Positions 7,801 through 35,868 of a stretch of DNA of 35,948 bases are shown here, in pieces (the stretch's first letter is position 1; each line of letters starts with the position of its first letter). The stretch is from NCBI GenBank assembly GCA_012961165.1, contig DTZW01000098.1, positions 1 to 35,948 of the forward strand, in the 5' to 3' direction. The notes beneath the pieces are model-generated. The model saw nothing but the letters and a program-made list of their open reading frames with translations, searched no databases and had not been told where the DNA came from. A program made the position numbers and the translations under genes. The DNA comes from Gammaproteobacteria bacterium (GTDB lineage: Bacteria; Pseudomonadota; Gammaproteobacteria; Pseudomonadales; Azotimanducaceae).

Positions 7801-8276
7801 TGGTGTGCGATAGTAGACGACTTTCCTGGGTGATCGTCTCCAAATACAACGAGCACACCACCATTAGGATGTGTTCCAGAATAATTGCCATGTTTAAGCG
7901 CATCTCCCGAGCGATCGACGCCAGGTCCTTTTCCATACCAGAGACCAAATACGCCATCGACATTGGTATCAGTAAATTGTGCCAGCTGTTGCGTACCCCA
8001 GACACTCGTGGCGGCAAGGTCCTCATTTACGCCTGGATTGAAATGTATGTTGTGAGCTGCAAGAGCTGTTTTTTCACGCCATAGCGTCGAATCATAATTG
8101 CCGAGCGGTGAGCCACGATAACCGGAAATAAATCCAGCCGTATTTAGCCCTCCTTTCCTGTCAAGCTCCTGCTGGAGCATCGGAAGTCGAACCAGGGCCT
8201 GTGTGCCATTGATGAATATTCGACCCCGGGTGACCGTATATTTGTCATCGAGACCGATTCTATTCTGCATTGTCAT
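4824..8276 (-). CDS. Indolepyruvate ferredoxin oxidoreductase, fused single-chain form
   Basis: This 1150-aa enzyme of the 2-oxoacid:ferredoxin oxidoreductase class uses thiamine diphosphate and iron-sulfur clusters to convert an aryl-2-oxoacid and CoA to an aryl-acyl-CoA and reduced ferredoxin. In order are an IorA-like N-terminal half; the thiamine-binding region with FCSGCPHNTST and GGGIGCHGIAFF (about 430-460); a cysteine-rich cluster region (CEGCGDC and later Cys); the gamma-type domain with GVGGTGVITVGALLG (about 715-730); and a C-terminal extension typical of the fused form. The ATG at 8276 has GGAG upstream. It ends the long minus-strand gene run. In aromatic amino-acid catabolism it handles indole- and phenylpyruvate; its job in an arene operon is unclear. 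Confidence 0.92.
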   Translation of the reverse strand: MTMQNRIGLDDKYTVTRGRIFINGTQALVRLPMLQQELDRKGGLNTAGFISGYRGSPLGNYDSTLWREKTALAAHNIHFNPGVNEDLAATSVWGTQQLAQFTDTNVDGVFGLWYGKGPGVDRSGDALKHGNYSGTHPNGGVLVVFGDDHPGKSSTIAHQSEQALAANSIPVLYPANVEEFITFGLLGWSLSRFSGLWIGFKTVNETLEQTATIDIDVETFSIQIPETDSAADIHYKPGHYNPQADEMIVNRVRLPLVHQFVRANNIDRAVYAVDECIMGLVTAGKSYQDTMEALQLLAVDEVRAKELGIAVYKVGCIWPLEPEGIRAFAGDLELLFFIEEKKPFLELQAASVLYDLSSRPKIIGKRDEAGGVLLPSETLLDPTQVALAIAGQLDRLGVMDERLKQRVDKLTNNLLLVKSGSDSPLNRTPFFCSGCPHNTSTNLPEGSVAGGGIGCHGIAFFNRSDMLSFTHMGAEGVTWAGISPFVGTNHVFQNLGDGTYFHSGLLAIRASVAAGVNITYKLLYNDAVAMTGGQPIDGPISVGTITQQVLYEGVSRCVIVTDTPEAYISGADNVHSDVRIYHRDQLDVVQRELRETEGCSVLIYEQTCATEKRRRRNRGLLADPAKRMFINDAVCEGCGDCSVQSNCISIEPKETPLGIKRVIDQSSCNMDFSCVKGFCPSFVSVQGGSLKKETGNATDESYIEQLQAVKPATIKTESYNIMIAGVGGTGVITVGALLGMAAHLEGKTCSIYDMTGLAQKGGAVYSHLRIADAGKRINTQRIDVGAADLVMGFDLVGSMAKEATQTLAKDRTTFVGNTHIKPTAGFQTDADIDFSSEPYIARITSLLGSDSSHFVNATELALALCGDTIATNLFVVGFAAQKGLLPLEESSILEAIKLNGVAVDFNIKAFNLGRLWAEDRAKIIEWTKGAVLNDKKASDYTLEELIEHRTTLLTDYQSVGYADRYLALVNQVRMAEQRIANTDLELTRSVADSFAKLMAYKDEYEVARLYSSPEFKKKLEAQFSGDYKLKAHLAPPIISTSDKNTGNLVKKEFGGWVFMLYPLLAKLKILRGTRFDIMGYTQERQRERALIEEYEELMIQVCDMLSGDNLELAIELAELPRTIKGFGHVKMLNIDRAKKRESELAERLFK

Positions 8277-18465: not shown

Positions 18466-18801
18466 TTAGTTCCTGTTCGCCTGATGAAACGGCAACACCC
18501 TTGTTTTCAGTTTCTCGAGCACCTCGAGTTCAATATCTGTTTCCGGGAATATGCGACAAGCTAAACCCAACCCATTGTTCTCGTCATCCTCAGAAATATG
18601 GGCTCGACTCATCGGCAGGTAGCTGCATTGCCCGGATACAATCCGCACCCTGCAAACTCCACACCCGCCACCGTGACAACCGGACGGAATACTTTTTCGC
18701 CCAAGTGCGGCCATTGCATTGAGAACTGCTTGATCGTTACCGCACAAAAATCTTTCCTGACTTTGTACAAGGGTAATCTCATAATGCTTACTCGCACTCA
18801 T
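18466..18801 (-). CDS. dmpQ: Chloroplast-type [2Fe-2S] ferredoxin, DmpQ/XylT-like
   Basis: This 111-aa plant-type ferredoxin has CHGGGCGVC (about residues 42-50) and the fourth ligand in LACRIF. In the known dmp and xyl systems this protein re-reduces the active-site iron of catechol 2,3-dioxygenase after oxidative inactivation by substituted catechols. The order dmpP, this gene, dmpB is the classical one. AAGGAAG precedes the ATG, and it starts 12 bp after dmpP. Confidence 0.92.
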   Translation of the reverse strand: MSASKHYEITLVQSQERFLCGNDQAVLNAMAALGRKSIPSGCHGGGCGVCRVRIVSGQCSYLPMSRAHISEDDENNGLGLACRIFPETDIELEVLEKLKTRVLPFHQANRN

Positions 18802-18813
18802 TCACCGACTTCC

Positions 18814-19878
18814 TTATATCGATTTAAACAACGGGCTTTTAGGTTTCTCGCTTTTACTGGCATTGGTGTAAAAGTTTTCCAGGTAAATGTCTCGTTCAAA
18901 CAACCTTCCCTTCATCAGGGTAGAGATACAGGCGTCAATCATCGGAGGTGACCCGCATAGATATGCTTTATACCCCTCGAATCGACCATCAAAGACCTCG
19001 TCTGCCGCATCATGCACGTATCCCCGGATTCCAGACCAATCGCTGCCTTCGGGTTCTGCAGAAACAACCGGTACATAACGGAAGTTTTCATAATCTTGCT
19101 GGAGTCTCTCGAATAGCCCTCGGTAGTACAGTTCCTGAGTGTTCCTGGCGCCGTAGATTAAGGTGATGGATTGACTGGCACCGCTCTCGAGCAGATTGAG
19201 GATCATGGATTTGGGGCTGGACAAACCAGAGCCGCCGGACAGAAAGATAATAGGTTCTGGCTGTGACTTTCTGACAAAGAATCGGCCATAAGGGCCAGTA
19301 AAACTTATCTCGTCGCCAACCTTGAGATCGTTGTGGATGTAGGATGTACCCTGTCCGTTCTCTATCAGGCTAACATTCAACTCGATGAGTTCTGACTCGG
19401 AAGGCGGGCTTGAAATGGAAAACGCTCTCGGCTGGCTTTCCAGACCCGGGATAATCACATTGACGTATTGGCCAGCTTGAAAATCGAGCTTGTCTTGCTC
19501 AAGTGCAATGAATATACCTTTTATACGTGGTGTCATTGTTTCAATTTTGCTGACAATGCCCTTAAAATCCCGAACCAGATGGATTTGTGCATCTACTTCC
19601 TCTTCGACATCCACTTCTATGACCAGATCACTTTGCGGAACTGCACAACAGGCAAGGCACTTGCCTTCATCTCGTTCAAAGTCCATCAACGCGAATGGTG
19701 ATGCTTCTCCCTGCTCAACATCGCCTTCCAAAATATCAACCTTGCAGGTGGAACATAACCCGTGCCCGCAGGCATGAGGCAGGTACACTCCCGCTCTCAA
19801 GGCAGCATCGAGTATCGTTTGCCCTTCTTCAACTTCTACAATTGCGCCGAGCGGTTCAATTTCAACCTGGTATGGCAT
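18814..19878 (-). CDS. dmpP: Phenol hydroxylase reductase component P5, DmpP-like
   Basis: This NADH-dependent reductase (354 aa) supplies electrons to the phenol hydroxylase. The N-terminal plant-type ferredoxin domain has CGHGLCSTC (about 37-45) and a fourth Cys in GKCLACCA; the FAD site is RAFSISS; nucleotide-binding motifs are GGSGLSSPKSM and YLCGSPPM. Length is normal for DmpP. It ends the phenol hydroxylase set, 19 bp after dmpO. Confidence 0.95.
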   Translation of the reverse strand: MPYQVEIEPLGAIVEVEEGQTILDAALRAGVYLPHACGHGLCSTCKVDILEGDVEQGEASPFALMDFERDEGKCLACCAVPQSDLVIEVDVEEEVDAQIHLVRDFKGIVSKIETMTPRIKGIFIALEQDKLDFQAGQYVNVIIPGLESQPRAFSISSPPSESELIELNVSLIENGQGTSYIHNDLKVGDEISFTGPYGRFFVRKSQPEPIIFLSGGSGLSSPKSMILNLLESGASQSITLIYGARNTQELYYRGLFERLQQDYENFRYVPVVSAEPEGSDWSGIRGYVHDAADEVFDGRFEGYKAYLCGSPPMIDACISTLMKGRLFERDIYLENFYTNASKSEKPKSPLFKSI

Positions 19879-19897
19879 CTGTTTTACTCAACCCTGG

Positions 19898-20257
19898 TTA
19901 GTTGCCTGACCCATCAACACCATCGAGACCTGGTGTAATAAATCGTAGCAATGATTTGTGACCAATTCCGTTCTCTGCAAGGCTTGCATCCGGATTTGGC
20001 ACGAACGGTTGATCATCCAATATCCATTCAACTGAATCCCACTGGAGATTTTTATAATCTGGATGGCCACTCCAGATACCTGGAATGACTTCCTGCTGGA
20101 GTGCCCCAAAGGGCATCTCTGGCGGCAACGGGAAAGCAGCCGCGGCAGAAAACATGCGGTGACGATCCCAATCTACATAAACGAGTTGATTGCCATGAAA
20201 GTTTTCGACCGCATCCGCCACAATGTCGACATATGTTCCCAGAGTATTAATTGCCAT
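19898..20257 (-). CDS. dmpO: Phenol hydroxylase subunit P4, DmpO-like
   Basis: This small hydroxylase subunit (119 aa) forms the oxygenase with DmpN and DmpL. It shows the family's N-terminal pattern DAVENFHGNQLVYVDWDRHRMF and the PLPPEMPFG motif. AAGGAGA lies about 7 nt before the ATG. It starts 11 bp after the dmpN stop, in the standard order. Confidence 0.94.
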   Translation of the reverse strand: MAINTLGTYVDIVADAVENFHGNQLVYVDWDRHRMFSAAAAFPLPPEMPFGALQQEVIPGIWSGHPDYKNLQWDSVEWILDDQPFVPNPDASLAENGIGHKSLLRFITPGLDGVDGSGN

Positions 20258-20268
20258 GAATAGTCTCC

Positions 20269-21795
20269 TTAGCCGACCGCGGTAGTTTCATCTTCGATAT
20301 CCTGCCCTTTCCATGCCTGCCACCTTTTATGATCGGCTGAGCCCACGTATTCTCCAGAGTCCTCTTCGTTGAAATGATACCACTTCAGGACGTCAGAAAT
20401 TTCCGCTCCGCCGCAGTTTCCCTGGAATATTTGATGAACAGGGAGCCACGCCTGTGTGTATTTTTCGGGTTCGTTCTCAAAAATATCTCTACAACCATCA
20501 GAGCAGGTGTGGTATTTGTCCCCTTTAAACAGTGAGACACGACGGCTTATCATCATGGAGTCCGTCATCACTTCGGTGAAGCACATGGGCACCTGACATA
20601 TCTGACAAAGCTGAGGGAGCCCCATGAAGTAATGCCTGTTACCAGCTTTTTCCATCTCCCGAAACATCTCAAATCGCGGTCGATAGCATTTGTCGAATGT
20701 ATCGGGATATTTTTCCGATAACCAATCCATTTTCCGATCGTCAGGTATCCATGTATGCAAGGCTGCTGCATGGGTAAAGTTGTACAAGGTGCCCCAGATC
20801 TGGTGGCTGAGATGCTCTGATTCAGCTGTAGCCACTTCATGATATTTTGGCATTCTCAGACCATACCGGCTTAAATCGTTGAACAATGCGCCAATGTTTT
20901 CTACAAAATAGATTTGCCACGCTTCTTTCCAGGACATCGGGCTGTTCGGTAACATGTAATCCTGCATGGCGGATACCAGGCTCAATACCCGGTATGCCCG
21001 CCAGAAGTGCTTGTCGATCCACCCCTGCACGATGGGAATATTGTCTTCATGCTGTTCAAGCATGAACTTGATGATTTCCAGACCCAAGGTCATGTGACGG
21101 GATTCATCCGATTGTGCTGAGAAGCCGAAAGTCACGGTTGCCATGTCACCGTTATGCGCGGCACCCGACATGAACGGTACAAATAAAAGATTGGTAAGAA
21201 TGTATTCGAATGCAAAGGAGACCGACGTAATGAACTCGAACGGTCCTCCTGTCATTGCATCTTCGAAGTAAGATTTAGGCACTGAGAGATACCAGACCCG
21301 ATCAAACATATGAATTGAATCGTGCAACCCGTTGAAATGTTTGTTGTAGTGGCTCAGTGTGTGCATCTGCGTCTGACAATGACGCAACTCATCAATAGCC
21401 TGCATCTGGCAAGCAACACGGGTTCCCTCTCCACGGAACTGCCGCCCCAGGTGCGCAAAATGTCGATGAGCACCATATTCCAGGGGAGAAACCCCCTGGA
21501 TAAACAGTTTTAGCGCATTGACATATCTGGCATCAGTCAAATTCAACTGTGCATTATTCTGTGCAAAACTATCGATGATGGCATACAGCTTCTTTTCTTT
21601 TTCTGCCTGAAATTTCCAGTAGGCATCAACCGTCAATCGAAACGGATCTTCCCACTTATCCCAATCTTTTATTTTTATTCCTTCAAAACTGTCATACGGA
21701 AACACCTTATCCATCGGTTGATATGTGGTCTCCCAGCCCATGCCCCGGGTGAGTAGCCCGTACCTCTTTCGCATATTTAGTCGTGCTGCTGCCAT
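20269..21795 (-). CDS. dmpN: Phenol hydroxylase large (diiron) subunit P3, DmpN-like
   Basis: This catalytic subunit (508 aa) hydroxylates phenol and methylphenols to catechols. Diiron ligands are seen as E106 (PLEYGAH), DELRH, FEYILTN and DESRH; a C-terminal four-cysteine zinc-like motif is present (CQIC and CSDGC). The helix after E106 reads GAHRHFAHLGRQF, with three His where, from memory, DmpN has an AFQ-type sequence. The track begins with GTG at 21798; the ATG at 21795 overlaps the dmpM stop (TGATG) with AGGAGA upstream, so it is preferred. Confidence 0.96.
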   Translation of the reverse strand: MAAARLNMRKRYGLLTRGMGWETTYQPMDKVFPYDSFEGIKIKDWDKWEDPFRLTVDAYWKFQAEKEKKLYAIIDSFAQNNAQLNLTDARYVNALKLFIQGVSPLEYGAHRHFAHLGRQFRGEGTRVACQMQAIDELRHCQTQMHTLSHYNKHFNGLHDSIHMFDRVWYLSVPKSYFEDAMTGGPFEFITSVSFAFEYILTNLLFVPFMSGAAHNGDMATVTFGFSAQSDESRHMTLGLEIIKFMLEQHEDNIPIVQGWIDKHFWRAYRVLSLVSAMQDYMLPNSPMSWKEAWQIYFVENIGALFNDLSRYGLRMPKYHEVATAESEHLSHQIWGTLYNFTHAAALHTWIPDDRKMDWLSEKYPDTFDKCYRPRFEMFREMEKAGNRHYFMGLPQLCQICQVPMCFTEVMTDSMMISRRVSLFKGDKYHTCSDGCRDIFENEPEKYTQAWLPVHQIFQGNCGGAEISDVLKWYHFNEEDSGEYVGSADHKRWQAWKGQDIEDETTAVG

Positions 21796-22088
21796 CACTC
21801 GTCTCCTGAGTTAGTCGTTCCCGACCATGCCAATGTAAAGTAATCATCATCTTCATCAATGTTGCCACTCAGCGAAACCAGGTTGAGTTGAAGTTCCTGA
21901 ATGTCCCAGTCTCTACCGGACTTCTCGCTGACGGTGAGACGGTTCACCGTTAATCTACCGGGCGATTCGATTCGAACCATGCCGGGAAGATGTTCGATAT
22001 GGGCCTGTTGATTATCCTGCTCAATTGCTTCGACGATGGGACGTGCTTCTTCGTTGTCCTGAAGAATGAGAAACACCTTATCTGCCAT
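21795..22088 (-). CDS. dmpM: Phenol hydroxylase effector subunit P2, DmpM-like
   Basis: This coupling protein (97 aa) is needed for hydroxylase turnover and carries no cofactor. It has the DmpM/MmoB-like stretches VRIESPGRLTVNR and WDIQELQLNLVSLSGNI. The track starts at 22094 with MIMADK; the second ATG (22088) has AAGGGGA six nt upstream, while the first ATG directly abuts it, so I choose 22088. It overlaps the end of dmpL by 11 bp, consistent with coupled translation. Confidence 0.93.
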   Translation of the reverse strand: MADKVFLILQDNEEARPIVEAIEQDNQQAHIEHLPGMVRIESPGRLTVNRLTVSEKSGRDWDIQELQLNLVSLSGNIDEDDDYFTLAWSGTTNSGDE

Positions 22089-23094
22089 GATCATTCCCCT
22101 TTAGCACCAACCCCTGGTCACACATTCGCTCGAACAACTCCTGTCTAATCTGGGTTAAATATTGCAGGCCTGTCTCGGGGAATGCCGCAAGACAGATTGG
22201 CTCCAGCGATTCCGATAAACGAGCGAGCCATTGAGAAGTCCAGTTAGAGAGTAGTTCTGTATTCTCCACGGATTCAGCCGCGGTCGTCTTTATCAGCGCA
22301 TTGGTCCAGCGAACTGTTTCGGCGTACCAGTCATTCATGAATTCTGTCAACATCGCTACGCCAATGTTATCTTGCGAAAGATCATCGACCAGTCGCTGAT
22401 AAATCAATGGATAAACTAAACCATCCATCACAATATTTTGCGCAATCATGGTTTCAAACCAGTCTTCAAGCACAAATATATCTTCCATTGCGTGTCGAAG
22501 TTTTTGCCACATCTCCAATCCGAGCCAGTCAGATTTCGCCTGGTCCAGAACCGCTGTATCATTCCCGTTAGCCATCAAGCCAATACGTGTCAGGTACTGG
22601 GCAATTCCAAGCCGATCGATTGAATTGAACATGGTTACCTGGGTTACGGCAACGCCGTAACCAAAGTCGGTAATAGCGCAATTGTTCATGTTTGCGCCCC
22701 ATTCCACATGCCTCAAGGGGACAATGAACGAATTTATTTTGTTTCTGATCTCATCTGACTGATCAGCGAAGAGGTTTCGCTTGTCGACGAATTCAAAATT
22801 CTTCTCAACAATTTCCTGCTGCTTGGCTCGCGCCATGGTGTAGGTGCCATAATAAAACTGTCTGGGATCTTTGAACGAATACCAGTCCTCCATCACTATC
22901 GCTGTCCGGCTAACATCATAGACTTCATATTTCGGATCCCAGAGGGGCCGATAATGAAAGTTAGCCGTTGACTGAAGGTCATAAGTGGCTTCCTGATAGC
23001 GAGAGCCTGTCTTGCCTTCACCAATTCGCCGAGCAACATGGTCATAGGTAAGTCGTATCGGCTCAATGGTCGTTGATGGTATTTCAATACTCAT
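22078..23094 (-). CDS. dmpL: Phenol hydroxylase subunit P1, DmpL-like
   Basis: This is the beta-like structural subunit (338 aa) of the phenol hydroxylase oxygenase. Typical stretches are DPKYEVYDVSRTAIVMEDWYSFKDPRQFYYGTYTMARA, in which only the general ferritin-like fold remains and the iron ligands are absent, and FVPLR-like VPLRHVEWGANMNNC. GGAGAAC precedes the ATG. It lies 36 bp after dmpK. Confidence 0.94.
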   Translation of the reverse strand: MSIEIPSTTIEPIRLTYDHVARRIGEGKTGSRYQEATYDLQSTANFHYRPLWDPKYEVYDVSRTAIVMEDWYSFKDPRQFYYGTYTMARAKQQEIVEKNFEFVDKRNLFADQSDEIRNKINSFIVPLRHVEWGANMNNCAITDFGYGVAVTQVTMFNSIDRLGIAQYLTRIGLMANGNDTAVLDQAKSDWLGLEMWQKLRHAMEDIFVLEDWFETMIAQNIVMDGLVYPLIYQRLVDDLSQDNIGVAMLTEFMNDWYAETVRWTNALIKTTAAESVENTELLSNWTSQWLARLSESLEPICLAAFPETGLQYLTQIRQELFERMCDQGLVLKGNDHGR

Positions 23095-24467: not shown

Positions 24468-24502
24468 TTCGTATCCAACCGATTCGGGATACGTTTTAGA
24501 TC

Positions 24503-24517
24503 GCAATCTTCATGCCA
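24503..24517 (-). promoter_or_regulatory. Sigma-54 -24/-12 promoter for the phenol hydroxylase operon
   Basis: The minus strand reads TGGCATGAAGATTGC, one mismatch from TGGCACG-N4-TTGC at exact spacing. The predicted start of transcription is about 36 nt upstream of the ATG at 24467. It lies between the regulator gene and the dehydrogenase, both on the minus strand, as expected for a DmpR-controlled Po-type promoter. Confidence 0.87.
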
Positions 24518-24674
24518 GTTTCTACAGGGTCCTAAACACCTGTTCTATAAGGAGATCTTAAGTCGGTACAGGTTTGGAGTTCGCTATATGGCAAGTTATT
24601 TAGCCACTTAACCAAATAGCTAACGGGATTTCCGGAAACAGCCTCAAACAGCCGAGCACCAAAGAATGTTCGAG

Positions 24675-24698: not shown

Positions 24699-26387
24699 TC
24701 AATCTTCGGGAACACGGCTGCCGCCAGCCGCAACAATTTCGAACTTTTTCAACCGATATCTGAGTTGCGCATCCCCCATGCCCAATAAACGCGCGGTGGC
24801 TGACACATTTCCATCGGTACTATCAAGCGCCATTTCAATAATTCGCTGTTCAAGTGATTCAAAGGAATTACCTTCTGCAAACCACTCTTTTATATTCAGA
24901 TCTACAGTTTGGTTGGAACTCAATCGGCCACTACGATCAACTGTTGGCAAGAGATTCCCGACCTGTTGCTGGCCCGGAAATAGAACTGTACTGTCAACTT
25001 TACCGCCGTCCTCGGTCAGAATCACACCACGCTCAATCACATTTTCTAGTTCCCGGACGTTACCCGGCCAGGAATATTGTTGAAATGCCGCCCTAACTTT
25101 GTCCGTTATTCCCAAAACGCGTTTGTTGTGGCGAACATTACTTTTCTGAATGAACAGGTCCACCAGTGCAGGTATGTCCTCAACACGTTCTCGAAGAGCA
25201 GGGATGTGTAATGGGAACACATTAATGCGATAGAGCAGATCTGCTCTGAATTCTCCGGCTCGAACTTTTTCTTCAAGATCAGCGTTAGTAGCTGCTATCA
25301 GGCGCACATCAACTTTTCTTGTGTGGATGTCCCCGACCCTGTCAAATTCGCCAGACTGCACTACTCGGAGTAGTTTAGCCTGTGCAGCAGCCGTCAATTC
25401 TCCTACTTCATCAAGAAAAAGAGTGCCACCATGCGCTCGTTCGAACCGGCCCGCTCTAGACTGATCTGCACCGGTGAAAGCGCCTTTTTCGACCCCAAAT
25501 AGTTCAGCCTCAATCAGGTCTGCCGGGAGCGCTGCGCAATTCACTGCAACGAACGGTTTGTCTTTTCTTTTGCTTAGTCGGTGCAGAGCGACTGAAAATA
25601 TGTCTTTGCCAACACCCGTTTCCCCCAACAACAAGACCGGCACATCACAATCAGCGGCAGGCTTCAACAGTTTCAGCGCCGCTTTTATGCTCTGCGATTC
25701 GCCAATAATGTCGTCAGGATTAACGTCTTCGGTCATCGTGGAGCGCAACTGCGTTACTTCGTTACTCAACGAGTACAGAGTTTCCGCAATTGAATCGGCA
25801 GAATAGTATGAGCTGAGCTTTTCACCGTCTTCCCACTCCGCTATGGGTTTCCCCACGATGCGACAGTGTTTGTCCCCCATGCCCATGCACTCAATTTCCT
25901 TGAACAGAATTGGCACTCCGACCAGCTCACTGGTGTATCCACCGGCGTAACCTATCTGGTTCCAGCAGACAGGCTCACCGGAAATACCCATCGTTCGCAG
26001 GTGTTCCTCTGCCTCAAAGGAATTTTCCCAATAAAATTCGCCATAATACCTACCGCTGCCTATATCCAGTTCAAGCTTTATGGGTACTACACGAACGATA
26101 CCCTCAAGTGCGTGTAATTGAGGACCTACCAGAAACATATCTTCTTCGCTCGAATCCGGGCGGATGGTCCTCGCAAGCCTCGCATCATTTTGACCGGACA
26201 AACTTCCCATTCGCATGAGCAATCCTTTAGCCCGGGAAAGGCCAAGACTGTTTACTAGCTCATTTCTCAGCGCCCCAAAGGACGAAGCATGCAGCATCAG
26301 CATCCGCTGCTCACCAAGCCAGATCTTGCCACTCTCATCGTCAAAGGAGATGATGGATCGCAAATCCTGAATTGAAGGTACAATCAT
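24699..26387 (-). CDS. dmpR: Sigma-54-dependent aromatic-responsive activator, DmpR/XylR class
   Basis: This 562-aa enhancer-binding protein activates sigma-54 promoters when it binds an aromatic effector directly. The N-terminal XylR_N/V4R sensor region spans about 1-205, with [16 protein letters not shown] at the V4R end; the AAA+ domain follows with Walker A GETGVGKD, the sigma-54 contact loop GAFTGA and Walker [10 protein letters not shown]; the Fis-type HTH is at the C-terminus ([22 protein letters not shown]). Length equals that of DmpR. It is the only regulator in the window. A short A/T-rich 110-bp region separates it from the divergent trpB-like gene. Effector range cannot be read from the sequence. 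Confidence 0.95.
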
Positions 26388-26497: not shown

Positions 26498-27856
26498 ATG
26501 CAAACAAAAATAACGTTACCTGAATCCTCGATACCAGATCATTGGTACAACGTCGTTGCTGATATGCCTAACCAACCACTCCCTTATATTGGACCTGAGG
26601 GCCAACCGATCACTCCCGATGCCATGCAAGCAATTTTTCCGCCATCAATCATTGAACAGGAGATGTCTGGTGAACGCTGGATCGAAATACCTGAACCCGT
26701 CCGAGAGGCTCTCAAGTTGTGGCGCCCTTCGCCGCTGTACCGTGCGCATCGACTTGAACAGGCCATCGGGACACCTGCCCGGATCTATTACAAAAATGAA
26801 TCGGTCAGCCCGGCGGGCTCCCACAAACCCAATACAGCTGTAGCCCAAGCCTACTATAATCGCGAGGCCGGTATTAGTCACCTTGCTACTGAAACCGGGG
26901 CGGGTCAATGGGGTTGTGCACTCTCCCTTGCCGGACAAATGTTTGGACTCCAGGTTCATATTTACATGGTGAAAATAAGTTACGACCAGAAACCTGCAAG
27001 GCGCTCGATGATGCAAGCCTGGGGCGGGGAGGTGCACTCCAGCCCGTCCAATCTGACCGAATGTGGCCGAAAGATTCTTGATAAAGACCCCAACTGCAGT
27101 GGTTCACTCGGTATCGCCATATCAGAGGCGGTAGAAGAAGCCGCGGGTAAGGAAGACACAAACTACGCACTTGGTTCGGTGCTCAATCATGTCCTGCTAC
27201 ATCAAACCGTCATCGGCCAGGAGGCCAAAGCCCAACTGGCACTGGTTGACGAATACCCGGATGTAATTTTCGCTCCATGCGGTGGAGGGTCTAATTTTGG
27301 GGGAATTGCCTTTCCGTTCTTCGCTGACAAAGCTGCCGGAAAGGAAGTGCAGCTTGTTGCGGTTGAACCAACATCATGCCCCACACTCACCAAGGGAACC
27401 TATGCCTGGGATTGGGGAGATTCTGCCGGTCTGACACCAATAATGAAAATGTACACGCTTGGCCATGACTTTGTGCCACCAGGTATCCACGCGGGTGGAC
27501 TCCGATACCACGGCGCCTCTGCCCTGGTCAGCCAGCTTTATCACGAGGGGCTTATAGACGCAGTTTCAATACCACAGACAGAGACGTTCGAGGCGGGTCT
27601 TTTATTTGCAAGAACCGAAGGCATTATTCCGGCACCAGAATCAACCCATGCGCTGGCCGCCATGATACGCGAGGCTAAATCCTGCAAAGAAAGCGGCGAA
27701 CAGAAAACGCTATTGTTTAACCTGTCCGGGCATGGTCATTTCGATTTGAGTGCCTATGATCGTTTTATCAGTGGGGAATTACGGGATGAGGAATATTCAA
27801 GCGAAGCCATTGCGGCGTCTCTACAAAACCTACCCAATGTTGCTTTTGAAGAATAA
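26498..27856 (+). CDS. Tryptophan synthase beta-like protein, TrpB2 type
   Basis: This 452-aa PLP enzyme has the long TrpB2 form. PLP lysine: GSHKPNTA (about residue 108); substrate loop TETGAGQWG; phosphate-binding CGGGSNFGG; C-terminal NLSGHGHFD. Core residues look intact, so activity is plausible. TrpB2 proteins condense indole with serine (or phosphoserine in some archaea) and often lack a TrpA partner; no trpA or other trp gene is near. It is divergent from the aromatic regulator and converges with the DUF1329 gene, separated by a perfect inverted repeat. A normal indole salvage role and a special role with aromatic compounds both remain open. Confidence 0.9.
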   Translation: MQTKITLPESSIPDHWYNVVADMPNQPLPYIGPEGQPITPDAMQAIFPPSIIEQEMSGERWIEIPEPVREALKLWRPSPLYRAHRLEQAIGTPARIYYKNESVSPAGSHKPNTAVAQAYYNREAGISHLATETGAGQWGCALSLAGQMFGLQVHIYMVKISYDQKPARRSMMQAWGGEVHSSPSNLTECGRKILDKDPNCSGSLGIAISEAVEEAAGKEDTNYALGSVLNHVLLHQTVIGQEAKAQLALVDEYPDVIFAPCGGGSNFGGIAFPFFADKAAGKEVQLVAVEPTSCPTLTKGTYAWDWGDSAGLTPIMKMYTLGHDFVPPGIHAGGLRYHGASALVSQLYHEGLIDAVSIPQTETFEAGLLFARTEGIIPAPESTHALAAMIREAKSCKESGEQKTLLFNLSGHGHFDLSAYDRFISGELRDEEYSSEAIAASLQNLPNVAFEE

Positions 27857-27911: not shown

Positions 27912-29327
27912 TTAGCGATAGTCTCGAAGTTGGTCAACATCAAACATTTCTTCCGTGACAATCAAATCTCGCCTTTCCCAATTCGGTGTCATGTACAAGG
28001 TGGTCATCCGCTTGGTGACGTAGTTATTAACCATCACGTAGCGCCATTGTGCGTCACCTTCACTCGGTCGCCATGCACGGCTATCTTCCCAGTTTCTGTA
28101 GGGATTTCCTCTTGGGTCCCAAGTCATATGGTACTGCATGTAATAAAATTCCTTGTCAACCCAGGTGCGGCGCTTTGAGTACATGTACTTGCCGGTTTTA
28201 TCAATGATGTCCAATATCCAAACAGGACGAAGTTCCAGCTCCATTGATTCGTAGTTACACGCATCCTCAGTCAACACAGCAGAGTCATATACATATCCGA
28301 CCTCCGGAGAAGCAAGCACATAACCTTCGCCAACCAGTTTGTATTCAAAGGACTCCACATCAGTTTTCCCCCAGTAGGCACGCCAGTCATCCCAGGTGAG
28401 TTCCTGTCCTGAGGCTATCGGGTCTTGTGCATCTGAACCGGTCAAGACTCGCGTGCGGCGAAGGCTTGGAATAAAGACCTTAAAGTCATCATCCTTCTTG
28501 GCATCCGCATACCGTTGGCGTACACCAGCCAATCCACGAATATCATAAGGTTCGAGAAAGAAAATGGATCCACCTTCGATGTAATCCTCTTTCCCTGCAA
28601 TATCGCCGAACGGCTCTACATTCTGGCGATTATGATAGTGCCACCACCAGAGATCGGCCTTGTATTCACTATCAACTTTTCCAGCCGGTGTGCAGGCACG
28701 CATATGAATGGGTTCAAAATCAAGCGTGTCGGTGTTCACCGAATGGGCGACGTATGACCAGTTCAATTCCAACCCGTTTTTCGGATTCATGAATGGCACC
28801 GAGGTCGCCCCAGGACCTGACATCAAAGCATAGGAGCCATCGGGGTATAACAATTCACCGGCCTCATTGATTTGCAGCTCTATGTTTTTCTCCTTGAGTT
28901 CCTTGGTCCCCTGTAAATACCCCTTGTGCATATAATAGGTATTAGTGGGAACGATGGTGATCTCTTTGATATGGCTCCAATCAGAGGTGAGATGACCAAG
29001 AAGCTCTTCCGGAAGAAAATCCTTCAGCCACGGAAACTGGTCCATATTCTCACTGTTGATCTTCAGACCCGGTTTAAGCTCTTCGGGTAGTTCCGCATTC
29101 GCCAACAAGTCGTAGGAGTCGTAACCTCGAACTTCTCTCCATTCTTTTGCCAATGCGACGGCTGCAGGCTTGGATATTTCTTCCACCCATGCCGCATGAT
29201 TTGGATTTCCTGTTTGTTTGGCAAACTCTTTCCACGCTTCCAGCGCTTTATTGGTATCTGCAAATCCTGAGGAACTGCAGAAGAGTGCAAACAGCCATAT
29301 CGAATTGAATTTTTTTAATGATTTCAT
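27912..29327 (-). CDS. DUF1329-family exported protein
   Basis: This 471-aa protein carries an N-terminal signal peptide (MKSLKKFNSIWLFALFCSS, probable cleavage near FADT). The DUF1329 family has a predicted outer-membrane-associated, beta-rich fold; the C-terminal part with RRTWVDKEFYYMQYHMTWDP and repeated aromatic residues fits it. The ATG at 29327, with AGGAGA upstream, is preferred over the track's 29360 because it begins the signal peptide. It is the last gene of the Ycf48/RND/DUF1302/DUF1329 operon. The function is not established; co-occurrence with DUF1302 and RND genes near catabolic genes suggests handling of hydrophobic compounds at the outer membrane. Confidence 0.88.
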   Translation of the reverse strand: MKSLKKFNSIWLFALFCSSSGFADTNKALEAWKEFAKQTGNPNHAAWVEEISKPAAVALAKEWREVRGYDSYDLLANAELPEELKPGLKINSENMDQFPWLKDFLPEELLGHLTSDWSHIKEITIVPTNTYYMHKGYLQGTKELKEKNIELQINEAGELLYPDGSYALMSGPGATSVPFMNPKNGLELNWSYVAHSVNTDTLDFEPIHMRACTPAGKVDSEYKADLWWWHYHNRQNVEPFGDIAGKEDYIEGGSIFFLEPYDIRGLAGVRQRYADAKKDDDFKVFIPSLRRTRVLTGSDAQDPIASGQELTWDDWRAYWGKTDVESFEYKLVGEGYVLASPEVGYVYDSAVLTEDACNYESMELELRPVWILDIIDKTGKYMYSKRRTWVDKEFYYMQYHMTWDPRGNPYRNWEDSRAWRPSEGDAQWRYVMVNNYVTKRMTTLYMTPNWERRDLIVTEEMFDVDQLRDYR

Positions 29328-29376
29328 TAACTTTTTCTCCTGGTTTAAATTGCATTCCACCGCGCCATAGCAATGT

Positions 29377-31299
29377 TTAAAATTGATAGGTTATCGATAG
29401 TTCTATAAAGTCTTTGTCGTCGAATATTCCTATCGGCGCCACCTCAGCACGACCACTAAAGTGCTGTATCTCCAGCCGAGGACGCCAGTGTCCGCCAAAG
29501 TAATTAAAATCTATTCGTTGTCTATAACTCGTGCCATGACCATCAATATTTCTGATAAAAAGCCCTTCCAGGACTAGGCGTTGGTTATCCAGAGGCGCGC
29601 TCCACAAAAACGTGACGTAGTTTTGGTTAGTCTCAACTTCAGTAGTTCCATAAGGTGCCTGTGCCATCAAATTGTCGGCATCCTCAGTGTGCAAATTGAA
29701 CCACTGGAAACTGGTGAATATTGATTTTTGTTGCCCGGCCCAGCCAGGTACCCACAAGGGGTAGTCAAAGCCCATCATCAGAGAAGTCACATCTCTTTCC
29801 ACAATCGAAGCTGAAGGACTGACGAAATTTGCAACTGCCCCCTTCTCCGACTGTGCCGCGAAGAATGGATTTTGAACAACGCTTTGATTAAAGGGTTTGT
29901 CGAATTCATGGGACAATTCAATACGCATCGATGGCGACGTGCCTTTGGGGCCAAAAGAGACAAAGTCTCCCATATCCCTCGTAAAGCTAGCCCCAACAAG
30001 TTTCTGCCGATAGGTAAAATCCAGATCAATATGTACCGAAACAGAGCACTCCAGACCCGTCCCGCCGGGATCGTTCACGGGATCATTACACCCTCCACCC
30101 GTCAGCAGGGTAAGCGGGCTTGTTGTCAAAGGACTTTTACCTGCCGCACCGCGAAGATACGGCAGATAACCGGATGGGTTTCCCGCGGTTGGCGATGTCG
30201 CAGTCGGATTGGCAAAATCAGGTAACCAGAGGGCCGCCAGCAGCGTCGCATGGTCAACCTCAACATTAGCGACCGAACCGGCGGGATCATTCACACCCGA
30301 CCCGACATGCACCGTCGCTCCGCGCATTTTTACGATAGGTAGATCCTGCCTGCCGTAAAACGCATTCAAGGTCATTGTGCCACCGAGTGACTCAAACTTT
30401 AATCTCACGCCGACTTCAGGTTCGTCAAAATCATCCATTTCGATGACATCGAGTTTCGCACCGAAAGCCACCGCACCCAGGCCTGACTGATGAGGCAACC
30501 CAATGTCGGAAAAATCTGGCCAGGGTAGCCCGAATGTGCCGCCGTCAGTTGCATCACTGGTTGTTGGATTGTTTACCAATACCTCACTATGGCGAACCTC
30601 AGGAATGATATTCACTTCCAGCACTGGGCGTTTCATACCGATTGCTTCAAAAGGCGCGGCAATACCCATTTTACTAAAATTAAAGTCCGCAGAAATCATC
30701 CACGCAGGAATCCGAATTTCATCGGTATCCTTAAACACAAATCGCTCACGCAAGTCCTGAGCATGAAGAATATCTAACAGCCGCAAGCCATCAGATTGAC
30801 CCCACCCACGTTGAAACTTGCCGACCTTGAATGTGTATCGACGTTTCGAGTCTTTGTACTTTAAAGAGAGCTCGCGAATCACCTCGTCATCAAAATCATC
30901 GAAGATATCGAGTTCATCGTTGGGTGCACAAAATTCCCTTGCCTGAAGATTGCAATTGCTGGCGCCGTGCTGAAAACTGCCGCTGGGAAAGGGTGGACCA
31001 GCGAACAGGTTTTTCAACCCGCCGGTGCGCTCGACGAAATCGGGATCATTCGCCTGCCCTCTAACCCACAAATTGCCGATAAGCGTCAGATTGCGATTCG
31101 GGCGATAAGTTGCCTTAATCTCTGATAGATAATTCTGCGGGCCATCATCCGACCCCTGTTCCAGGTCATATAGAACGGAGTAACCGGCTTTTAACCTGCC
31201 GTCCACGGTCAAACCTTTCACATCAATATCAAGAGCAGATACTGGCGCAGAAACGATCAGGCCAAGTAATACTAATAGTTTTAGTTGAAATTCCCTCAT
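29377..31299 (-). CDS. DUF1302-family outer-membrane protein
   Basis: This 640-aa exported protein starts with a signal peptide (LKLLVLLGLIVSAPVSA, cleavage before LDID) and ends with a terminal aromatic (ITYQF) and many alternating beta strands, as in outer-membrane barrels. The DUF1302 family assignment is by its N-terminal LDIDVKGLTVDGRLKAGYS and long strand-rich body. GGAGAAA precedes the ATG. It lies between the RND transporter (22 bp) and the DUF1329 gene (49 bp). A role as a channel or receptor for a hydrophobic substrate is a reasonable but unproven inference. Confidence 0.85.
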   Translation of the reverse strand: MREFQLKLLVLLGLIVSAPVSALDIDVKGLTVDGRLKAGYSVLYDLEQGSDDGPQNYLSEIKATYRPNRNLTLIGNLWVRGQANDPDFVERTGGLKNLFAGPPFPSGSFQHGASNCNLQAREFCAPNDELDIFDDFDDEVIRELSLKYKDSKRRYTFKVGKFQRGWGQSDGLRLLDILHAQDLRERFVFKDTDEIRIPAWMISADFNFSKMGIAAPFEAIGMKRPVLEVNIIPEVRHSEVLVNNPTTSDATDGGTFGLPWPDFSDIGLPHQSGLGAVAFGAKLDVIEMDDFDEPEVGVRLKFESLGGTMTLNAFYGRQDLPIVKMRGATVHVGSGVNDPAGSVANVEVDHATLLAALWLPDFANPTATSPTAGNPSGYLPYLRGAAGKSPLTTSPLTLLTGGGCNDPVNDPGGTGLECSVSVHIDLDFTYRQKLVGASFTRDMGDFVSFGPKGTSPSMRIELSHEFDKPFNQSVVQNPFFAAQSEKGAVANFVSPSASIVERDVTSLMMGFDYPLWVPGWAGQQKSIFTSFQWFNLHTEDADNLMAQAPYGTTEVETNQNYVTFLWSAPLDNQRLVLEGLFIRNIDGHGTSYRQRIDFNYFGGHWRPRLEIQHFSGRAEVAPIGIFDDKDFIELSITYQF

Positions 31300-31321
31300 A
31301 GAATTTTCTCCAGTGATGGGC

Positions 31322-33706
31322 TTACGATGCCGCAGGTAGTTCTTGTGAATTAATAGCGGCTGTTGCCGCCGTTTCTGGTTCGAAGGTACTGTTTCTTTCC
31401 GGAAACAGAGATTTAGGCTTGAATGCGGCCAACGCAGCGGGCAGGAACAACAACGAGCCCAACATGTTCATGAACAGCACCAATCCCAACAACATGCCCA
31501 TTTCAGATTGAAAGCGAAGTGGAGACATAAATGCCCAGGGTAGCAGTGGACCGATCATCGTTATCGCAGTAACGAAGATTGCATTACCCGAGGTCAGGAA
31601 TGCTCGATGTATTGCATCAGCAATAGTATCCGTGGCTTTCGCATACTCTTCTTTAATGCGATCAACCATATAAATACCGTAGTCGACGCCTAACCCCACG
31701 CCGAGCGCGGCTAAAGGCAAAGTGCTCACGTTTAATCCCACCTCTTTCCACGCCATAAACGCGTACGTCAGTGAATTTGCCGTGGCCAGGCTGAATAGCA
31801 AAATAAACGCTACTGTCGGGGAGCGATAATAGATGAGAATGCAGGTTCCAATCACAATGGCAATCGCGATCATTATTTTGATATTTGACTCAGTGATTTC
31901 GCGATTCAGGGCCTCTACAATGCCAATCTGCCCGCCTGAATATAAAAAATCGGCTTCTGAAACAATTTCATCTTCAAGGGTAAAAAAGCCTTCAAGCGTT
32001 TTGGTCATATTTTCTATCGTCGGCACACTGTGATCTTCGAGAAAAAACGATACATTGCCGATTTCCCAATCTACATTTGTAAAAGCCGCAAAATCTCCCG
32101 GCTCTCCTCGAGAACGGTACATATAGATATCAAACCCGATCTCTTCTTTCGTGTCCGGAAGAATTTCATAAGATGGATCTCCCTCATACAAAACCGAATT
32201 GACAAGTTTTATAATCGGCACAAGGCTTTGCGCTGGACGGACTTCCCGCATGTGTTCATACATATAGCGATCCATCGCTTCGATCTGGTGGTAAACGGTC
32301 GGGTCCAGCATCGTGTTTTTGTCACCTTCGATGTAAACCTGCATCAGATCAGTACCCAGAAACGAATACCTGGTATTGATTGACTCAGAATCGAGGTTGT
32401 ATCGCGCATCTGGCCACAGGATTGCGCTTCCCTTGGTATCTCCAACCGTCAGATTTGAGGCATAGGTCATACCCAGTGCAAACAACCCGAGCGTCACCCC
32501 AATGACAATGAATTTGTGATCTTCAATATCAATGACTGTAGTCCAGATTTTGTTGAGTAACTTCGAACCGGTATTATGGGAAACCGGTGGTTTCATCAAA
32601 CACAGCAGTGATGCCGCGAGAATCAATGCCGGGATGATAGACAACAGCCATAACCCGCAAATAATTGCCAACCCCTTGATGCTGGGTATCGCCACCAAAC
32701 CCAGTACACCAAAACCCGCAGCATCGGTAAAAATAGCTGCAGTACTGGGCACCATGACCCTGGCCAGCCCTTCCTTGGTACAAAGCCGCAAATTGTCAGG
32801 ACGTGTCGAGGCGTTATCAACATTGTCCAGAATCCGCGTCGTTAATTGCACACCGTGTGACAGGACAATGGCGAAAATAAAGGCTGGTAGCAGAACGAGG
32901 AGTGGATCAAGGTTGTATCCGAAAGCCCCCATTGTACCGAGGCCCCATATGGTCGCTACCACAGCGGTTGTCATGGGTACAAACACACCAATCCATGTAC
33001 GGAAATACAGGTACAACACCATCGCGACTATGGCCAGAGAAATAGCAAGGATCAATACAACAGAATCAAGGGCCTGATAAATGTAGCCGAGCAGGATCGG
33101 TCTGCCCACAAAATTTAGCGATAAATCATCGTCCTCCATTTCTATCCTGAGATTCAGGAAAAAACCCAGGATACTTTCAAAATCTGAATCATCTTTGAAG
33201 TCTGCAATGATCATCATTGAGGATTCATCATCCGAAACCAGAAACCCGCGATATTGGCTATTCACGGCCCGACGAAATTGTTCCATAGACGCTGAATCTC
33301 GCGGCAAGTCTGGCCACAGGATCGCGTCAACTTCAACCGTTCCACCGCCACCGGTAATGGCCTTGGTCTTACGTAGAATCATGGACTGGCTGAGATGGCG
33401 GTAAGTGGACGGGTGGTAGTAAATTTCTTCCGCAATTTTCTTGTATTTCTCTAGAAACTGAGTCGAGTAAACATTCCCGCTTTCACTTTTTACTTCGATT
33501 AGCGTCGTGTTAGCACCACCAAACTGATCCCCAAACCGTAAAAACAGCTCCACATTGTTTGCCCCTTCCGGCAGCATCTCTTCAAGAACAACGTTGAGGG
33601 ATAAACCTTTATAGATGAAGTAAGCAGGGACTATAGTGGTAGCTAAAAGCACTATGAGAACCCAGCCTGCATACTTTGCAACAAATGCTGAAATAACGTT
33701 GGACAT
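31322..33706 (-). CDS. RND-superfamily transporter (MMPL-like)
   Basis: This 794-aa inner-membrane protein has two repeats, each with one leading membrane helix (VLIVLLATTIVPAYFIY near the start), a periplasmic loop, and a five-helix bundle (about 210-370 and 600-770). The second bundle has GLGVDYGIYMVDRIKEEY, a hallmark of predicted RND/MMPL exporters. It is shorter than the 1000-residue drug-efflux RND proteins and has no periplasmic adaptor gene nearby. Its ATG overlaps the stop of the Ycf48-like gene (TGATG). In this operon type it may move lipids or hydrophobic substrates between membranes; direction is not known. Confidence 0.9.
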   Translation of the reverse strand: MSNVISAFVAKYAGWVLIVLLATTIVPAYFIYKGLSLNVVLEEMLPEGANNVELFLRFGDQFGGANTTLIEVKSESGNVYSTQFLEKYKKIAEEIYYHPSTYRHLSQSMILRKTKAITGGGGTVEVDAILWPDLPRDSASMEQFRRAVNSQYRGFLVSDDESSMMIIADFKDDSDFESILGFFLNLRIEMEDDDLSLNFVGRPILLGYIYQALDSVVLILAISLAIVAMVLYLYFRTWIGVFVPMTTAVVATIWGLGTMGAFGYNLDPLLVLLPAFIFAIVLSHGVQLTTRILDNVDNASTRPDNLRLCTKEGLARVMVPSTAAIFTDAAGFGVLGLVAIPSIKGLAIICGLWLLSIIPALILAASLLCLMKPPVSHNTGSKLLNKIWTTVIDIEDHKFIVIGVTLGLFALGMTYASNLTVGDTKGSAILWPDARYNLDSESINTRYSFLGTDLMQVYIEGDKNTMLDPTVYHQIEAMDRYMYEHMREVRPAQSLVPIIKLVNSVLYEGDPSYEILPDTKEEIGFDIYMYRSRGEPGDFAAFTNVDWEIGNVSFFLEDHSVPTIENMTKTLEGFFTLEDEIVSEADFLYSGGQIGIVEALNREITESNIKIMIAIAIVIGTCILIYYRSPTVAFILLFSLATANSLTYAFMAWKEVGLNVSTLPLAALGVGLGVDYGIYMVDRIKEEYAKATDTIADAIHRAFLTSGNAIFVTAITMIGPLLPWAFMSPLRFQSEMGMLLGLVLFMNMLGSLLFLPAALAAFKPKSLFPERNSTFEPETAATAAINSQELPAAS

Positions 33707-34890
33707 CAGTTCTCTCCCCAGCGGCTGGAGATGAGTCTAATCTTCCCGGATGCGGCAAGATTGAATGCCTCGTCGTAGCTCTGTTTTTCGAAATCGCCCG
33801 AAACAACCAATCCTCGAATACCAGATGCCCAAAATTCACCACCTGGCAAGACGTCGATGCCCCCCAACCAGATAAAACCCAAAGGAAAGCCAGCGCCAGC
33901 TGTCAACATCTCCGTGTTCAATCCTCTCGCTTTGATAAGTGTTGAACGACCTACAATCAACGCCTCACCGTTGCCTCCCATATCAACATCAAGCAGGTGC
34001 TCGCCAGTTTGGGATACGATGGGTGTTACCGAATATTCAATCTCACTGGCGGGAATTCCACCATAAGTGCTGCCAGTGTATTCACGACCCAGGCGTATTG
34101 CTTTTGCGCGCTCTCGGGCTTCCTTAAGGGCACGCTTTTTTGACACGCGCGCAACTATTTCAAGACGTTCATCGTCTGTCGCCAATGTGAGACGTACTGC
34201 ATTGCCGTCGAGCCCGACGACATAGGCGACTTCATCATTTCCATCAATCGCCAGCCAGGTCACCGAAATATCAATCGGGCTAATCAACCAGTGATCCCCG
34301 CCATTTTCAGTGTGGCCAATCACACCAAATTCACCTACGAGTAACGCACTGTTGTTGTCCTTTGCAAACACACCGTGCAAACGAGGGAGATCCCGACCTT
34401 CAAAACCCAGCAATTTCTGTTTTTGCCATGATTTGCCGCCGTCTTTGGTATTCCATATATTCGCCTCGTGGCCTACGACCCAACCATTGTTTCGGTCTAC
34501 GAAGGAGACATCACGAAGGTAGATACCGGCGATTTCTTTTTGGACAATCCATGAATCCCCACCATCTTCGGTAAAAAAAATAGAACCGCGGTGTCCTACT
34601 GCCCAACCGGTGTTCTCGTCGACAAACGAGATTCGCCTAATCAGTTCATTTCTACCGATGTAGCTCGCTTCCCAGGTCTCCCCGGCATCTTTGGTGCGTA
34701 ATACGGAGCCGCCATATCCAGCAACGAAACCCAGGGTTTCACTCGGAAATGCTACGGCAAATAGATTGTCCGGCCAGAATCGATGGAAGCTGGAATCTTC
34801 AGCATGAACCTGGCTGACAGCTCCCCATATTGCACCGGTCAGGCCAATTGCCAGCACAAAATATTTACCCTTTTTAGCTAGATCTAACAA
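33706..34890 (-). CDS. Ycf48/HCF136-like periplasmic beta-propeller protein
   Basis: This 394-aa exported protein has a signal peptide (cleavage near SQVHA/EDSS) and repeated BNR/Ycf48 motifs such as GGSVLRTKDAGETW, RGSIFFTEDGGDSW and EANIWNTKDGGKSW, forming a beta-propeller. Ycf48 is a photosystem II assembly factor in phototrophs; this relative in a non-photosynthetic locus must do something else, perhaps assembly of the neighbouring transporter. The first codon is TTG, with GGGGA 6 nt upstream; no in-frame ATG is closer. It is the first gene behind the exact sigma-54 promoter, with about 95 nt of leader. Confidence 0.88.
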   Translation of the reverse strand: MLDLAKKGKYFVLAIGLTGAIWGAVSQVHAEDSSFHRFWPDNLFAVAFPSETLGFVAGYGGSVLRTKDAGETWEASYIGRNELIRRISFVDENTGWAVGHRGSIFFTEDGGDSWIVQKEIAGIYLRDVSFVDRNNGWVVGHEANIWNTKDGGKSWQKQKLLGFEGRDLPRLHGVFAKDNNSALLVGEFGVIGHTENGGDHWLISPIDISVTWLAIDGNDEVAYVVGLDGNAVRLTLATDDERLEIVARVSKKRALKEARERAKAIRLGREYTGSTYGGIPASEIEYSVTPIVSQTGEHLLDVDMGGNGEALIVGRSTLIKARGLNTEMLTAGAGFPLGFIWLGGIDVLPGGEFWASGIRGLVVSGDFEKQSYDEAFNLAASGKIRLISSRWGEN

Positions 34891-34995
34891 TTACATTCCC
34901 CGCTCGCAGCGCCCGTTCACCTTCTTAATCTGTAAAGGCTGATATTATTTTTATTGGAACCGCACACATCAGCTTTTCTGGATGTTGTTAACAAA

Positions 34996-35010
34996 GCAAG
35001 TAGCGTGCCA
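34996..35010 (-). promoter_or_regulatory. Exact-consensus sigma-54 promoter for the envelope operon
   Basis: The minus strand reads TGGCACGCTACTTGC followed by T, an exact match to TGGCACG-N4-TTGCW. The transcription start should be about 95 bp upstream of the Ycf48-like TTG. A transposase gene begins about 140 bp upstream on the other strand, where enhancer sites would usually lie. I find no strong activator palindrome there; TTGACTATTTGA near 35064-35075 is only a loose match. Confidence 0.88.
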
Positions 35011-35076: not shown

Positions 35077-35868
35077 ACTGGGACGCGACGATTTCGTTAT
35101 ATGGTGAACTGATCTACCAATTTTTGGATACTGACAATTTAATTCCCGAATATGGATAATCTGGGGGTGAGTATTTACAAACGTCATCGATTTCCAGGTG
35201 AAATTATCAGTTATGCAGTCTGGTTCTACTATCGATTCAATCTCAGCCAGGGAGATATCGAAGATCTTCTCGCTGAACGCGGTGTTATTGTGAGCTACGA
35301 AACCATCCGCCTCTGGTGTATCAAGTTTGGTGCTAAGTTTGCCCGGCGATTGAAACGAAATCACCAAGGCTATGGTGATACCTGCTACATCGACGAAGTC
35401 TTTGTGAAGATCAATGGTAAGCAGCATTATCTGTGGAGAGCCGTTGATCAGGACGGAGCGGTGGTAGACGTCTTTCTTCAGAGTCGCCGGGATGGTGCAG
35501 CAGCAAAACGTTTTTTCAAGCGTCTATTGAAACGCCATGGCGGTGAACCCAGGAAGATCGTCACGGACAAGCTTCGAAGTTATGGGGTCGCGAAACGAGA
35601 GCTGATGCCGGACGTTATCCACGACACGAACCAATATGCTAATAATCGGGCTGAACTGTCGCATCAGCCTACGAGAGTGAGAGAGCGTGTTATGCGGCGA
35701 TTTAAATCAATCAGTCAGGCGCAACGATTTCTTGGTGTGCGCATGCAACTGTTTACAATCTGTTCAACCTTGGTCGCCATCTGCTCAAAAGCAGACCACT
35801 ACCAATAACTGGGGTCGGAGTAATTACCCGGGGTAAAGTACCGGAGTAAACGCACCAACTTCCCAGTC
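35077..35868. mobile_element. Possible IS6-type element ends (weak)
   Basis: GACTGGGA at 35077-35084 recurs inverted as TCCCAGTC at 35861-35868, framing the transposase gene with a length (about 790 bp) usual for IS6 elements. The repeat is only 8 bp and I see no flanking 8-bp target duplication, so these boundaries are tentative. Confidence 0.25.
35152..35808 (+). pseudogene. IS6-family transposase with compensating frameshifts and early stop
   Basis: The first 195 or so codons match an intact IS6-type DDE transposase: HTH-like N-terminus, catalytic D in CYIDEVFV, D in IVTDKLRSY and E in NRAELSHQ. After QRFLGVRMQLF the reading frame loses the family's NLFNLGRHLLK, which appears in the next frame (AAT CTG TTC at about 35757), and returns to frame at KADHY. 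One base is missing near TTT (35752-35754) and one is extra at AAAA (35787-35790). A TAA then cuts off the usual C-terminal 15 to 20 residues. The catalytic core is whole, but the element looks damaged; sequencing error at homopolymers is the alternative. Confidence 0.83.

Follow-up and report, generated by a model that had tools for sequence, protein, structure and literature searches.

A divergent, σ54-linked relative of the AmeABCD envelope system adjoins aromatic-degradation genes in a gammaproteobacterium

The window analyzed here, a whole stretch of 35,948 nucleotides, carries on its minus strand four tightly spaced genes in the order C-D-A-B (27912–34890), as confirmed by a check of the ORF list. 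C (33706–34890) encodes an AmeC-like YCF48-type β-propeller (PF14870, 2.2e-21), which matches solved Ycf48 structures (5.9e-18), has a putative N-terminal signal peptide and starts with TTG as called. It is followed by D (31322–33706), an AmeD-like RND/MMPL permease of the HAE3 type (PF03176, 2.4e-24), by A (29377–31299), an AmeA-like DUF1302 protein and probable outer-membrane barrel (PF06980, 6.8e-11), and by B (27912–29360), an AmeB-like DUF1329 protein (PF07044, 2.8e-23) with a LolA-type domain (LolA_like PF17131) and an N-terminal helical region. The four genes, their families and their position are all as the original prediction had them, according to the ORF list and family scans. TGATG is indeed present at 33704–33708, where the propeller stop overlaps the RND start, and fits translational coupling, but the matched production that had been read into it goes beyond what such an overlap shows. 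The gap between D and A is 22 nt, and that between A and B is 16 nt with the B start as called; B probably starts at ATG 29327 rather than GTG 29360, because AGGAG lies upstream of the former and a signal peptide follows it. The permease had been described as adaptor-less, in agreement with the absence of any HlyD-type adaptor or TolC-type channel family match among the window proteins scanned, which also argues against an HAE1 tripartite pump of the AcrAB-TolC type. An assembly artefact or a chance neighborhood of unrelated genes, to which the contig end, the IS6 transposase adjoining the operon and the 8% estimated contamination of this draft genome might point, is highly improbable: the four frames are open without stops, two of them share a stop-start overlap, and conserved synteny refutes it, since numerous genomes from several phyla keep these genes together and arranged alike. 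Chance grouping is excluded because the set of four turns up in dozens of genomes.

The model of B (pLDDT 84.5) has a LolA-type fold, with its best matches to LolA3 (9tp6) and to a DUF1329 crystal structure (4z48) and a weaker match to LolA, so that a carrier of hydrophobic cargo would be the natural reading of the modeled protein. The model of A is all-β with weak porin-like matches, and its confidence (pLDDT 62) is too low for us to claim a strand count for the barrel.

The best NCBIfam model for D is HAE3 (TIGR00921, 1e-39), although the score of 136 bits lies below the curated cut-off of 352; by this match D appears to affiliate with HAE3, as does the AmeABCD permease. Hydropathy predicts 12 transmembrane (TM) segments with large periplasmic loops after TM1 and TM7, again as in the AmeABCD permease. 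TM4 of D contains S283-H284 and TM10 the Asp-Tyr dyad D675-Y676. The TM4 Ser-His pair is invariant (84/84 sequences) in a count not biased by the search pattern; the corresponding count for the TM10 Asp-Tyr is biased, since that motif was part of the pattern. MmpL3 uses two Asp-Tyr dyads (PMC11481577) and has Asp-Tyr where TM4 of D has Ser-His. Proton coupling of D is not certain because its TM4 is without the usual acidic residue. That the TM4 Ser-His is unique to the AmeD-like family is weakened as an idea by a His at this place in another RND protein of the same genome.

Strongly hydrophobic cargo is also handled by the MMPL-type RND permeases of HpnN, BstABC and MmpL3 transport, but these systems are without DUF1302, DUF1329 and YCF48 partners. 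Assignment of D to any of them was rejected: D scores 40 bits as the hopanoid transporter HpnN (curated cut-off 752), 21.8 bits as BstA of BstABC sterol transport (cut-off 1400) and far below the model cut-off as MmpL3. BstABC reaches from the inner to the outer membrane across the periplasm (PMC10942540), and its BstB-type family PF12974 has no match among the window proteins scanned.

The set had been thought undescribed, which does not hold: the 2018 description of AmeABCD already included a deletion and assays (PMC6394551), and there are further reports from 2014 (PMC3958437) and 2024 (PMC10866462). In Castellaniella defragrans, Puentes-Cala and Harder assigned AmeA to DUF1302, AmeB to DUF1329, AmeC to COG4447 (YCF48-type) and AmeD to HAE3 RND permeases, and they already noted the conservation of AmeABCD-like cassettes (PMC6394551). 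The window holds DUF1302, DUF1329, YCF48/COG4447 and RND proteins in one cassette and so belongs with AmeABCD. Both this cassette and that of C. defragrans 65Phen, compared here at the level of protein families, encode an HAE3-type permease and lie in a hydrocarbon-catabolism island, but the latter has the order A-B-C-D and is linked to monoterpenes, whereas the window has C-D-A-B in a phenol-hydroxylase/meta-cleavage context. Deletion of AmeABCD reduced growth on and tolerance to unfunctionalized monoterpenes and raised Nile Red accumulation in de-energized cells, and the deletion strain still used limonene with acetate present (PMC6394551).

Related sets have been reported in other settings. 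P. putida depends on PP_0765, PP_0766, PP_2018 and PP_2019 (DUF1302, DUF1329, a periplasmic protein and an RND permease, as in the window) to grow on Tween 20, and fitness data show that they act jointly (PMC10866462); the set is split over two loci, unlike the single cassette of the window. AlphaFold co-folding of these equivalents in 2024 predicted contacts, with C strongly to D (PMC10866462). The accessible parts of the reports on Delftia acidovorans Cs1-4 place DUF1302, DUF1329 and YCF48 genes (DelCs14_1756–1758) side by side in an aromatic-degradation island, as in the window, and interpret the phenotype as vesicle or nanopod formation, with an RND partner unmentioned in those parts (PMC3110197, PMC3958437). 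There, disruption of phnL (YCF48) in 2014 impaired vesicle formation and growth on phenanthrene, and phnL orthologues are described as commonly associated with hydrocarbon oxygenases (PMC3958437). The Delftia phenotype is credited by a later paper to deletion of the DUF1329 gene DelCs14_1722 (PMC13101534), as against disruption of phnL, DelCs14_1758, in the original (PMC3958437). In the benzene degrader ORM2a, a highly expressed "Nanopod" cluster encodes a porin-like protein, DUF1329, YCF48 and an MMPL permease together, as in the window, and was proposed in 2026 for benzene movement with the direction left open; ORM2a is an anaerobe, and its cluster has extra universal-stress and hypothetical genes (PMC13101534).

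The P. putida requirement on Tween 20 and the Delftia phenanthrene defect can be read as signs of uptake, of retention or of vesicle formation. For uptake, the barrel would admit an arene or hydrophobic ester, the LolA-like protein would carry it inward and the RND permease or the propeller would receive it, so that the substrate reaches the oxygenases. Both phenotypes, together with the proposal for ORM2a and the catabolic-gene linkage of C-D-A-B loci described below, speak for such a route (PMC10866462, PMC3958437, PMC13101534); the Nile Red gain and the limonene use of the AmeABCD deletion strain speak against it (PMC6394551). On balance we regard uptake as rather doubtful. RND permeases generally export, and small arenes cross membranes unaided, which is a further argument against uptake.

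We scanned one genome per species, listed the best 80 loci and determined their gene orders with four-protein profiles. Among the loci listed, 27 have the order C-D-A-B and 39 have A-B-C-D, with D-B-C-A rarer, and the D tree separates the two main orders with 100% SH-aLRT, one locus (L093) excepted. At E up to 1e-60, we find AmeD-like permeases in 142 of 392 genomes from the order and in 50 of 399 from the phylum. To score linkage to catabolism, we searched the flanks within 10 kb with enzymes encoded in the window itself, counting a XylR-type regulator, a monooxygenase, a ferredoxin reductase or an extradiol dioxygenase as a marker. Aromatic-catabolism markers flank 16/27 of the C-D-A-B loci listed versus 0/39 of the A-B-C-D loci (Fisher 1.5e-8, uncorrected for kinship), and the loci with markers come from about a dozen genera. 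In line with this, Phenol_Hydrox, XylR_N and DmpG feature in Pfam counts near the C-D-A-B loci listed; near A-B-C-D the counts show dihydroorotate dehydrogenase and ZapC, and this form sits amid core genes, pyrD and zapC among them. The proposed tie of a trans-envelope set for hydrophobic substrates to arene catabolism is thus borne out for C-D-A-B among the loci listed, and the promoter described below fits it, but A-B-C-D has no such neighbors at the 39 loci listed, so that the set is not always catabolic.

The core-gene surroundings of the A-B-C-D form, 0/39 with aromatic markers among the loci listed, speak for another explanation, that the system remodels lipids or the outer membrane, vesicles included, by moving a cell lipid outward, with solvent tolerance or hydrocarbon growth as secondary effects. 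The LolA-type fold modeled for B and the fewer vesicles made by the Delftia phnL mutant (PMC3958437) agree with this. For the window we nevertheless judge it unlikely, as the C-D-A-B form is accessory, σ54-linked and adjoins aromatic genes. Lipids are the cargo of the related HpnN and BstA permeases, which counts in favor of remodeling.

A perfect σ54 −24/−12 box, TGGCACGCTACTTGCT, lies on the minus strand at 34995–35010, ~105 bases upstream of the operon and just outside the 27912–34890 stretch covered by the original prediction. The genome has eight perfect boxes (four for the reversed control pattern), and 3/8 adjoin Ame-like clusters: in the window and on contigs C157 and C454. The box aligns in the orthologous loci of genomes G009 and G183, with one mismatch each, amid otherwise diverged DNA. 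Among the loci listed, a box with ≤1 mismatch precedes C at 7/25 C-D-A-B loci versus 0/36 A-B-C-D loci; such a box occurs in 1.5% of random stretches. The shared box is at most consistent with co-expression of the set. An IS6-family transposase (35152–35808, plus strand; NF033587, 1.5e-61) sits at the end of the contig, immediately upstream of the operon, its place in G009 and G183 being taken by a ferredoxin-reductase gene. An IS6 promoter driving the operon is not needed, given the conserved σ54 box between the two.

Nearby are two phenol-hydroxylase-type monooxygenase clusters, one of them at 18466–23094 on the minus strand (Phenol_Hydrox, Phenol_monoox, ferredoxin and reductase), and genes for catechol 2,3-dioxygenase, 2-hydroxymuconic semialdehyde dehydrogenase and a Rieske dioxygenase. 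A σ54 activator of the XylR/DmpR/MobR type is encoded at 24699–26387, minus strand (XylR_N 2.5e-35, V4R, Sigma54_activat; 612 bits with the MobR model, below its cut-off). The σ54 box is compatible with regulation by a phenol-hydroxylase-type activator, and the protein encoded at 24699–26387 is the probable regulator. A tentative activator site, TTCACCATATAACGAA (35093–35108, minus strand), is partly shared with 24580–24595 upstream of the phenol-hydroxylase operon; five matches to this palindrome were found against about one expected by chance, and we treat it as tentative only, as it is not clearly conserved in the orthologue upstream regions. A σ54-like box, TGGCATGAAGATTGCG (24502–24517, minus strand), lies just upstream of an alcohol-dehydrogenase ORF that probably starts with ATG near 24467 on the same strand, and could be the promoter of the phenol-hydroxylase operon.

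The window copy represents a deep lineage, with ≤33% identity outside its own small clade. Its D forms a long branch, so that its exact place in the tree is unsure; the nearest D among the loci listed is L036 (32%), and the D of the terpene degrader Thauera linaloolentis shares with the window D one large half of the tree that is rich in C-D-A-B. Close relatives occur in G009 (74% and 71%, two fragments), G183 (73%, a fragment) and G149 (64%), and G451 has two related copies (46%). XylR-type activators adjoin the loci in G009, G183 and G451 (both copies), and phenol-hydroxylase-type genes accompany them in G183 and at one of the G451 copies; the flanks of the G149 locus contain neither. Since only 1/16 other genomes of the genus carries an orthologue, the window copy is accessory, perhaps horizontally acquired. 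The same genome has further clusters on contigs C157, C253, C473 and, in part, C454. That on C157 (6944–19679) has the order D-A-B-B, with a distant C-like ORF and a HEAT-repeat protein, and is adjoined by a perfect σ54 box and a GAF-type σ54 activator.

The cassette is a divergent, σ54-linked relative of AmeABCD, ordinary and well resolved. We consider it reasonably probable that it is a four-part envelope system of the AmeABCD type, accessory to the aromatic-degradation cluster, that exports arenes and is induced together with the phenol hydroxylases. We favor export of apolar arenes because of the Castellaniella phenotype and RND precedent. D would drive export with protons and load arenes onto the LolA-fold carrier B, which would hand them over so that the barrel A can release them, while C may sit on the periplasmic domain of D as an assembly or handover clamp. 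The XylR/DmpR-type activator would, via σ54, turn on the operon and the phenol hydroxylases together, so that protection would rise with solvent exposure. About 40% of the C-D-A-B loci listed, and the G149 locus as well, are without an aromatic marker in the flanks examined, which counts against this explanation. More tentatively, an ancient core lipid-trafficking cassette (A-B-C-D) might have been reordered to C-D-A-B under σ54/XylR-type control, giving a dedicated arene-handling bridge; this would work with a proton relay on one side only (Ser-His of TM4 opposite Asp-Tyr of TM10) and with a LolA-type carrier that diffuses, in place of a sealed tunnel.

Together, these observations join scattered reports (AmeABCD, PP_0765 to PP_2019, phnL and the "Nanopod" cluster) into one widespread cassette and tell its catabolic, σ54-linked form apart from the core form. 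They add its commonness, its two main orders, the σ54 box, the deep lineage of the window copy and the TM4 Ser-His. Such a solvent-handling system bears on bioremediation, and the predictions on regulation and direction are testable.

Other genes in the surroundings include one for a TrpB-like PLP enzyme (26498–27856, plus strand; TIGR01415, 1.4e-188), which lies convergently, with the transport operon on one side and the activator gene on the other; in G149, putative tryptophan-biosynthesis genes precede the cassette. Within an aromatic-degradation cluster, 4824–8276 on the minus strand encodes a 1150-aa member of the indolepyruvate ferredoxin oxidoreductase family.
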